Source: Hyunsoonleella jejuensis
GTDB lineage: Bacteria; Bacteroidota; Bacteroidia; Flavobacteriales; Flavobacteriaceae
NCBI RefSeq assembly: GCF_900111025.1
Contig: NZ_FOFN01000001.1
Coordinates: forward strand, 372,001 to 436,000
Reading direction: 5' to 3'
Length of the DNA: 64,000 nt
The translations under genes and the position numbers were made by a program. Shown here piece after piece: positions 33,699 through 36,328 of this stretch (position 1 is the first letter of the stretch; each line of letters begins with the position of its first letter). A model generated the notes under the pieces. That model made no database searches. It was not told where the DNA came from and saw only the letters and a list, made by a program, of their open reading frames with translations.

Positions 33699-34571
33699 TT
33701 ATTGAATTATATGCTTTATCTCCTTTCGATATTGAGAAGCACTTTTCCCTGTAATTTCGTTAAACTGCTTATTGAAATGCGAAAAATTGTTGAATCCACA
33801 CTCGTAACAAATGTCAGCAATACTCATTTCGCTTTCATTTAAAAGCTTGGTAGCGTGCACAATACGGTATTCATTCACTATTTGGGTAAAGGTTTTTCCT
33901 GTGGCTTTTTTAAAATATCTACAAAACGCCGGAACCGTCATGCTTACCTTATCTGCTATTTCATCCAAAGTGATGTGGTTTTGAAAATTGGAGTTTACAT
34001 ATTTAAATATATCCCTGATTTTTGAGCTTTCTTGCGCTTCTGTTTCAAAAGCAACACCATCGGCATTTAAAATTTCATAATCATCAGTAAGCGCTAAATA
34101 CCTTAAAATCTCCATCAACTTGATAGAGCGCTCCAAACCTTGATAGTCTGAAAGTTTTTCAATTTTAGGCCCAATTATTTTTTTGGTTTCCACCTTAAAC
34201 CGAATACCCTTTTTTGCCAATTCAAACAAAGACACGAGATTTACTGCTTCGGGAATATTCAAAAAATCTTCCCCTAAAAAGTTGTTTTTAAAATGTATTG
34301 TGGTTTCTGTGCCTTCGGCAGTTAATCTATCAGTAAATCCATTATGAGGTAAAAATTCTCCTATAAGAATTAATTGACTATTATTAAAATAGGATAGATG
34401 ATTCCCTATATGGGTTTTTCCTTGTCCTTTATTAACGTAAATAAGCTCTAGTTCTTTATGAAAATGCCAATAAGCATCATTTCTATCTAACTTCTCAGTA
34501 TGCTGCTTAACCATAATAGAGCTACCGAAACTTGGTGTTAGCTTTTTAAGCGTAGGTTTCTTCTTTATCAT
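33699..34571 (-). CDS. AraC-family transcriptional regulator
   Basis: 290 residues: N-terminal cupin domain ('AYWHFHKELELIYVNKGQGKTHIG', about 30-60) and C-terminal AraC HTH (about 185-285; 'ISMTVPAFCRYFKKATGKTFTQIV'-type helix and 'IADICYECGFNNFSHFNKQFNEITGKSASQYRKE'). It resembles sugar- or nutrient-responsive AraC regulators. A 57-residue gene follows in the same transcript. The upstream region (34572-34737) separates it from the candidate RNA on the opposite strand and is rich in TATA/TTAA motifs; no operator could be picked out. Confidence 0.9.
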   Translation of the reverse strand: MIKKKPTLKKLTPSFGSSIMVKQHTEKLDRNDAYWHFHKELELIYVNKGQGKTHIGNHLSYFNNSQLILIGEFLPHNGFTDRLTAEGTETTIHFKNNFLGEDFLNIPEAVNLVSLFELAKKGIRFKVETKKIIGPKIEKLSDYQGLERSIKLMEILRYLALTDDYEILNADGVAFETEAQESSKIRDIFKYVNSNFQNHITLDEIADKVSMTVPAFCRYFKKATGKTFTQIVNEYRIVHATKLLNESEMSIADICYECGFNNFSHFNKQFNEITGKSASQYRKEIKHIIQ

Positions 34572-34708
34572 TGTAGGCTATTTTAATGCAAATTTAATGT
34601 TTATTATGCATACATTATATATTCTATTACCTTAAATATATACTATATTAACTTAACACTTATTTAACATTAATTTAATAGTTAATATAGCATATAAATT
34701 AGCCAAAA

Positions 34709-34745
34709 TTGATGTTTTATAAGGTGTGCATTACGTATATCTTTG
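34709..34745 (+). promoter_or_regulatory. Candidate promoter of the structured RNA
   Basis: TATCTTTG at 34738-34745 matches TAnnTTTG. A TTG at 34709-34711 is the only nearby -33-like triplet, with a 26-bp spacer that is longer than the usual 19, so the -33 assignment is weak. Confidence 0.48.
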
Positions 34746-34781
34746 TTCTATAAAAAGTGGCAAACCCTAACTTGGTAAAAA

Positions 34782-34814
34782 ATGAAAAAGATATTTAATA
34801 CCATTAGGATATAG
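34782..34814 (+). CDS. Possible 10-codon leader peptide
   Basis: ATG AAA AAG ... TAG encodes MKKIFNTIRI. Its ATG lies in the loop of the first hairpin and its last codons form the hairpin's 3' arm, so translation would melt the hairpin. No Shine-Dalgarno is needed to stand out in Bacteroidota; the region before it is A-rich. Whether it is translated is unknown. Confidence 0.28.
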   Translation: MKKIFNTIRI

Positions 34815-34905
34815 ATACAAAATAGAGTGCTTTACACAAGTAAGCGCATTTAGAAAATACATTAATAATTAATTTTAATGTCTTATTTAGTTTAGTTGGT
34901 TAAAG

Positions 34906-34931
34906 GTGGGCTGTGGTGGCCCACTTTTTTT
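34906..34931 (+). terminator. Rho-independent terminator of the candidate RNA
   Basis: GTGGGC, 7-base loop, GCCCAC, extended by A/T pairs, followed by seven T residues. It has no upstream protein-coding gene on its strand. Confidence 0.88.
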
Positions 34932-34959
34932 GTTTGAGAGAAAATCAATTGTATAAAAA

Positions 34960-34991
34960 AAAAGCACTTTATTTAAAATCAAAGTGCTTTT
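34960..34991 (-). terminator. Hairpin terminator, stronger on the minus strand
   Basis: AAAAGCACTTT, 10-base loop, AAAGTGCTTTT: 11-bp perfect stem. On the minus strand it is followed by nine T; on the plus strand by six. No annotated minus-strand gene lies within 300 bp upstream of it, so it may end an unrecognised minus-strand transcript. Confidence 0.72.
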
Positions 34992-35326
34992 TTGAGTAAC
35001 TCATTATTAAAAATCTTTCTTTTTCATATTGAATTTAACAAGAGCTAACTGCAATAGGCTTAACAATTTTCTATAATCTGATATACAACAACTGAAACGC
35101 CAAATGCTTTATATAAATGGGATTTGGAACTAAAATTTTTCTTTTTCACAGCAAATTTTTACCCACTTTATTTATTAGATGCAAAAAAAACAAAATGGTT
35201 GCGTTAGGAATTAAAAAAAACAATTACATACTTAAAATAGACTTTAATGCATGTTGAAAACTATTATTGTAACATCTCGAAACTTGTAGTATTTTAGCTA
35301 ACATAATTTTTTGAGAAAACGAAACA
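34992..35326. other. Upstream region of recA, no clear gene
   Basis: About 335 bp. The sole ORF of note is a 29-residue minus-strand frame (GTG 35149 to 35060, starting 'MKKKNFSSKSHLYKAF'), which would run into the terminator at 34960. No exact TAnnTTTG was found; the nearest is TAATTTTTTG before recA. The ORF is too short to call a gene confidently. Confidence 0.4.
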
Positions 35327-36328
35327 ATGAGCAACGAAAAAGAAGCAAAATTAAAGGCACTAAAACTTACATTAGACAAACTAGATAAAGCATACGGCAA
35401 AGGCACCGTAATGAAAATGAGTGATGCTGCTGTAGTAGATGTGGATGCCATCCCATCAGGATCATTGGGTCTGGATATTGCATTAGGTGTTGGTGGTTAT
35501 CCGCGCGGACGTGTAATAGAAATATACGGTCCGGAATCATCGGGTAAAACCACATTAACATTACACGCCATAGCCGAAGCTCAAAAAGCTGGAGGTATTG
35601 CAGCATTTATTGATGCAGAACACGCGTTTGATAGATTTTATGCCGAAAAATTAGGTGTTGATATAGACAACCTTATTATTTCCCAACCCGACAACGGTGA
35701 GCAAGCACTAGAAATTGCCGATAATTTAATCCGTTCTGGTGCTATAGATATCGTTGTTATAGATTCGGTAGCAGCATTAACGCCTAAAAGCGAGATTGAA
35801 GGAGAAATGGGAGACTCAAAAATGGGCTTGCATGCGCGTTTAATGTCTCAGGCCTTAAGAAAGCTAACCGCTTCTATAAGTAAAACGAACTGTACCGTTA
35901 TTTTTATTAACCAATTACGTGAAAAAATTGGGGTAATGTTCGGCAATCCTGAAACAACAACTGGTGGTAATGCCCTAAAATTTTATGCTTCGGTACGAAT
36001 AGATATTCGTAGATCTACCCAGATTAAAGATAGCAACGGCGAAGTTTTAGGAAATAAAACAAGAGTTAAAGTGGTGAAAAATAAAGTAGCGCCACCCTTT
36101 AGAATGGCAGAATTTGATATTATGTATGGCGAAGGTGTGTCAAAAGTTGGTGAAATATTAGATGTAGCCGTAGAGCACGATATTATTAAGAAAAGTGGCT
36201 CCTGGTTTAGCTATGGTGAAACTAAATTAGGACAAGGTAGGGATGCTGTAAAAGCTATAATTAAAGACAACCCAGAACTGTTTGAAGAACTGGAGGAAAA
36301 AATCAAAGATGTTATAAAAAGCGAATAA
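35327..36328 (+). CDS. recA: Recombinase RecA
   Basis: 333 residues. Walker A 'GPESSGKTT' (about 66-74), '[10 protein letters not shown]', Walker B '[24 protein letters not shown]', L2-region '[29 protein letters not shown]' and the acidic C-terminus ('[16 protein letters not shown]') are all present. It polymerises on ssDNA, drives strand exchange and triggers LexA-type responses. Single gene, closed by a strong terminator; no SOS box of the E. coli type was seen. Confidence 0.98.

Follow-up and report, generated by a model that had tools for sequence, protein, structure and literature searches.

A conserved RNA module beside araC with an optional reading frame: a probable small RNA derived from an mRNA in Hyunsoonleella jejuensis

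Between the araC-family gene and recA of Hyunsoonleella jejuensis, a promoter and a strong terminator enclose a short stretch of DNA with no ordinary gene, which raises the question of what this stretch encodes and where it came from. The window, as we call the whole stretch of 64,000 nucleotides that was analysed, carries here a divergent AraC-family regulator gene (33699..34571, minus strand; HTH_18, 2.2e-22) that adjoins the RNA in 12 out of 12 loci of the genus. The initial annotation had described a -7 box, four stems, a terminator, and a 10-codon ORF, all of which are present in 34738-34931, the arms of the second hairpin being slightly longer than claimed. All the features that follow lie on the plus strand. 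A conserved upstream promoter element (34680..34718), alike in both kinds of unit described below in the 27 loci (of 66) displayed, is a candidate AraC site to which the regulator may bind. It is followed by the -7 box TATCTTTG (34738..34745), with the TAnnTTTG pattern at a fixed distance from the araC start. From the positions of promoter and terminator, an sRNA transcript of ~180 nt is predicted (34752..34931), comprising the P1 hairpin (34766-34777/34799-34808), the ORF MKKIFNTIRI, 10 codons from ATG to TAG (34782..34814), the P2 hairpin (34825-34835/34840-34851), the P3 hairpin ACATTAA/TTAATGT of 7 pairs (34859-34865/34875-34881), a single-stranded linker of UUUAG repeats (34882..34903), and an intrinsic terminator with the near-invariant loop UGUGGUG (34904..34931). 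P3, the linker, and the terminator with its loop are together termed the 3' module (34859-34931). Another terminator-like hairpin, a bidirectional one (AAAGCACTTT...AAAGTGCTTT), can be read in the sequence at 34961-34990, separating the RNA from recA, the identity of the latter being taken from its naming in the initial annotation and from reading of the sequence. ARAGORN reports no tRNA or tmRNA.

Rfam cmscan analysis of the whole window returned no match at the gathering score, and that of 34560-35330 reported 27 matches at E up to 10, none of them over threshold; the RNA thus belongs to no known Rfam family. The best match, L20_leader, reaches 25.5 bits against a cut-off of 58.7, and the GibS model 18.6 bits against 115. 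The assignment to 6S or Flavo-1 that had been suggested earlier is not supported: neither 6S RNA (6S-Flavo included) nor Flavo-1 has a gathering-score match in the window or is found among the 27 matches. In the titles and abstract beginnings of the open-licence literature, no paper pointing to this RNA was found. Folding statistics are modest for the 191-nt RNA (z -1.59; 12 of 200 shuffles as good) and for 34746-34900 (z -0.74; 42 of 200), and stronger for the 108-nt 5' body alone (z -2.9). Folding by itself is weak proof of a structured RNA in the window; comparison with relatives settles the matter.

A covariance model (R1) of the module finds it in all 12 genomes of the genus that were analysed, with one strong copy in each (E 1.8e-9 or better, the next match being at 0.02 or worse). 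With filters that are stricter and lose weak matches, it was found at E≤0.01 in 61 of 397 sampled genomes of the family, and in 6 of 395 genomes sampled from the order, namely the genome of the window and five others belonging to its family. When the whole RNA is compared by BLAST with 40 relatives, the 3' part is retrieved from all 11 congeners (E 7.5e-8 or better), and the alignments cover that part only, stopping short of the 5' half. Between the window and its congeners, the module is 95-100% identical in 10 cases out of 11 and 82% identical in the remaining one (G004), as compared with 72-84% for araC, and the stretch from promoter to module varies in both length and sequence, with a gapped identity of 58-77% for which no control was run. 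A scan with a 23-base core reports at least 80 stretches, and among the matches listed are Hyunsoonleella, Jejuia, Tamlana, Algibacter, Mariniflexile, Confluentibacter, Seonamhaeicola, Aestuariibaculum, Flaviramulus, Flavivirga, Gaetbulibacter, Aestuariivivens, Marixanthotalea, and other relatives, with no Flavobacterium among them. The stems of the 3' module are kept between related genomes; the sequence of P1 is not conserved.

Compensatory changes, sought over homologues, are found in the stems of the module. Across 119 distinct copies, 94.5% of the cells are paired. Two-sided changes affect 16 of the 17 pairs, as compared with 2.3 for shuffles and no more than 6 if the pairing is slid; the alignment used (A2) was fitted to the model, so that its pair counts lean towards the structure, and in the unfitted alignment A1, of 12 rows, such changes are seen in only 2 of the 17 pairs. 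Every one of the 7 pairs of P3 has a two-sided change in one or more of the 119 copies, and the outermost pair of this hairpin is unpaired in 88 of them. The terminator stem reads GTGAGC/GCTCAC in 59 of 134 copies, GTGGGC/GCCCAC in 58, GCGGGC/GCCCGC in 4, and GCGAGC/GCTCGC in 2, is mixed in 2 and unmatched in 9, and the loop UGUGGUG is exact in 105. With paired substitutions in the stem and a loop that is mostly invariant, the conservation of this element exceeds what termination alone would require. In the same 134 copies, the linker contains two UUUAG units in 87, three in 36, and four in 3, none being found in 8. With its module conserved and its stems changing in a compensatory manner, the small RNA reading put forward at first is well supported, and we regard it as a new structured RNA family, its genome being one in which searches for Hfq and for an RRM protein were negative.

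The module occurs in two contexts. Leaving aside one of 135 matches (L162:1-57) that is cut by the end of its locus, 73 of the 134 classified copies end an ORF of at least 80 codons matching one and the same protein, hereafter the host protein, with the stop codon at one fixed offset of the module in 62 of these 73. The other 61 do not and are counted as stand-alone, including two doubtful ones (the first copy of L136, and L147) that resemble host genes truncated at the edge of the locus, and the copies of L126, L132, and L138 that are nevertheless located directly behind a host gene. The host protein belongs to a family of ~200 residues and is probably secreted, judging from its N-terminus. 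Pfam and NCBIfam analysis of three host proteins reports nothing over the curated cut-offs, with a similarity to DUF3244 just below the Pfam cut-off in two of the three. The loci share a layout in which araC is followed by a divergent array of units, either stand-alone or made up of a host gene and the module, and often by host genes devoid of the module; some module-bearing stretches contain no araC within their ends. In Tamlana nanhaiensis (L165), six stand-alone copies follow one another in tandem, 358-415 bp apart. Five host-family genes are arranged in tandem beside araC in L117, and six in L161, where araC is outside the stretch. In L132 and L138, two consecutive modules follow one host gene, 135 and 184 bp apart.

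Both contexts share one promoter. Where araC is in reach (66 loci), an intact gene, its last codons and stop lying within the module, forms the first unit in 22 loci and is missing from it in 44. The distance of the -7 box from the araC start is alike in both states, being 163-169 nt in 61 of the 66 and 185-187 nt in four Tamlana loci, a strict match being absent in one, in a count made without a random control and with TAnnTTTG also occurring elsewhere in some loci. The 66 loci beside the same araC display an intact gene, a half-decayed gene, or a gene-less RNA at a single promoter. The origin of bacterial sRNAs is an open question, largely since sRNAs change too fast to be traced; with three states at one promoter, the conversion between mRNA and sRNA becomes traceable and open to testing. 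On the araC tree, which is a gene tree and not a species tree and on which gain and loss are indistinguishable, the states alternate with 9 changes, 8 of them forced by supported branches. Seven switches are still forced when five doubtful stand-alone rows (L145, L109, L140, L160, and L102) are dropped, and a quick tree gives 10 changes, 6 of which are forced.

Within the window, remnants of the gene are recognisable at both ends of the RNA. The 10-codon ORF shares 17 of 20 bases with the start of the intact gene in L153 (Jejuia pallidilutea), and of the 45 bases that precede P3, 29 agree with L153, a level attained in either case by none of 2000 shuffles; the segment 34816..34872 represents the last codons and the stop (...INN*) of the lost host gene. 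With relics at both ends, the window RNA is best read as a host gene the middle of which has been deleted. Hyunsoonleella aquatilis contains a half-decayed gene of which only codons 2-82 and 169-200 are recognisable, and a stand-alone unit of Tamlana fucoidanivorans opens with MKNVITNTKK, much like the host start by a comparison that had no shuffle control. The coding-like stretch before P3 is clear, beating all 40 shuffles, in only 16 of 57 stand-alone copies, so that coding ancestry is established for a minority of them and extrapolated to the rest. The suggestion of a leader whose gene was lost was thus right as to the loss, and wrong as to the gene, which was the transcript's own and not a downstream one.

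The 5' part behaves differently from the module, in that its sequence varies and its folding tends to persist. Taken together, P1 and P2 of 40 stand-alone units, out of 44 (three were too long and one lacks a -7 box), fold with a mean z of -1.90, with p≤0.05 in 19 of 40 and p≤0.5 in all 40. The 5' bodies of the nearest congeners, L108 and L166, have no excess folding (z -0.5 and 0.1). P2, located directly before P3, occurs in both forms of the unit: in a 45-nt segment, p≤0.05 is reached by 22 of the 60 stand-alone copies and by 26 of the 71 coding ones. In relatives the hairpin is located at the same place inside the coding region. For this named stem, chosen by eye before testing, all 5 pairs are in register in 23 of 61 coding copies (the distinct ones among the 73, with a stop offset of 19 only), as compared with at most 3 when the stem is slid; 222 of 305 cells are paired against 207.8 (sd 3.7) in shuffles, none of 2000 reaching this value. 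The positions of P2 that covary in coding copies include two third codon positions. An unguided scan for covarying column pairs in 64 distinct coding copies, swamped by shared codons, does not return P2 among its top 25 pairs, and was replaced by the named-stem test.

The window RNA is thus probably a trans-acting non-coding RNA of ~180 nt, derived from an mRNA by internal deletion, with the 3' module as its working part. Transcription would start at the promoter facing araC, under an AraC control suggested by position, and end at the RNA's own terminator. As the relics and the intact relatives show, the deletion removed most of a coding region of ~200 codons, whereas the promoter stayed in place together with the opening codons and the entire 3' end. 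P3, the linker, and the fixed-loop terminator would then be the functional elements, and the 5' body, folded but variable, would probably serve as a protective spacer. The module, near-unchanged after the loss of the protein, most likely acts in trans, since a cis element without a reading frame has nothing to act on; this could involve pairing or the binding of a protein, the likely contacts being the linker (2-4 UUUAG units) and the fixed loop. In relatives that keep the gene, the module is the 3' end of the mRNA and may work there or be cut free. In a broader proposal, one transcription unit would shuttle repeatedly between mRNA and sRNA in evolution, with selection holding the promoter and the 3' module, the reading frame being optional and the C-terminus dictated by the RNA, of which the last codons and the stop are structural parts; we favour this proposal by a small measure.

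Searches for a pairing target gave the following results. The complement of the linker, allowing up to 3 mismatches, has 6 matches in the window's genome, one of which is the RNA itself, as compared with 5 for the reversed control. The linker pairs with 128 host start regions at a mean of -7.09 against -9.06 for shuffles, and with 65 araC start regions at -8.18 against -9.20. As it pairs less well than shuffles in both cases, autoregulation through pairing of the linker to host or araC starts is not supported. As for possible protein partners, Hfq was not found in the window's genome, and PF00076 returned no match to an RRM protein there. TTTAGTTTAGTT tracts resembling the linker lie outside any module in the same genome (L180 and L181; G000:C2:61919 and C4:199027).

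Among the other explanations, the one that survives best, still an unlikely one, is that the direction was the reverse, an older sRNA whose 3' end was taken by host genes, or that whole units were lost by recombination between tandem modules; it is partly compatible with the derivation by internal deletion. Tandem arrays of both kinds exist, and the tree counts are blind to gain versus loss. In 16 of 32 loci, as compared with an expectation of 7.3, the copies agree with one another in linker and stem class, which points to conversion or to a recent duplication. Against this, each genome of the genus has a single strong copy beside araC, at the same place, belonging to an intact mRNA (G001), to a decaying gene (G009), or to a stand-alone RNA; with one strong copy per genome, loss of a neighbouring module-bearing unit is unlikely within the genus. 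Module-bearing hosts also cluster on the host tree, with 8 changes as compared with 40 in shuffles.

Rather less probable is a decoy, in which the module would be a cis element of host mRNAs, bound by a protein for stability or localisation, that the stand-alone RNAs soak up. The same module does end up to two mRNAs in a locus that also holds a stand-alone copy, a repeat number of 2-4 in the linker suits protein binding better than a pairing seed, and no antisense target was seen in the linker searches. However, the window's genome has one strong module copy, and the module is missing from the only host paralog that was found in it; with no module-bearing mRNA found in this genome, a decoy would have nothing to compete with. 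We give very little credence to a recent dead relic, in which promoter, hairpins, and terminator would merely not yet have decayed after the loss of the gene: the coding remnants at both ends agree with it, but it is already strained by the conservation of the module, which stays near-identical in 10 of 11 congeners and exceeds araC in identity as lengths and sequences between it and the promoter diverge, and the six tandem copies of Tamlana nanhaiensis speak against it. A leader-peptide attenuator or riboswitch, with a ribosome melting the first stem as the initial annotation had imagined from the ATG in the first loop, can hardly be upheld, as the 10-codon ORF is what is left of the start of the lost gene, no leader ORF is conserved (an ATG ORF of at least 8 codons is absent in 24 of the 44 first units without an intact gene), and no recA was found in the vicinity of the RNA in the stretches from 11 congeners, the contig of one of them (G011) ending just past the module.

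Among known systems, the closest are the bacterial sRNAs derived from 3'UTRs as reviewed in PMC9438474, in which a functional RNA module at the 3' end of an mRNA likewise shares the terminator of that mRNA. The same arrangement is found here, the module and its terminator being common to the RNA and to the mRNA 3' end in the 73 of 134 copies that end a host ORF. The difference from these sRNAs is that 44 of 66 loci have no intact gene, and that the RNA would run from the mRNA's own promoter; by analogy, it would work like an sRNA of the 3'UTR type with the body of the mRNA dropped. The main text of the review contains no match for the words pseudogene, ancest-, or lost (PMC9438474). By taxon, the nearest described sRNA is Rfp18 of Flavobacterium psychrophilum, from the same bacterial family, reported as structured, conserved in Flavobacterium, and affecting metalloprotease mRNAs, the comparison with it being by description alone (PMC9723704). 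FopS and GibS of Bacteroides, described as paralogous Bacteroidota sRNAs, have a single-stranded stretch before the terminator, as here, and their partner RbpB is an RRM protein (PMC11697453); they are ruled out by the GibS score of 18.6 against 115 bits and by the lack of any RRM protein found in the window's genome. Synteny is broken in the window at 34931-35327: a host paralog follows the RNA in 8 of 11 congener stretches, and the window has recA next, the host paralog of its genome (G000:C2:296880-297491) being located ~110 kb away from the RNA. MicL is a further example of an sRNA derived from a 3'UTR. In mammals, Xist arose from the protein gene Lnx3 and is likewise a non-coding RNA from a decayed protein gene; it is unrelated, and the parts kept here are the promoter and the 3' end.
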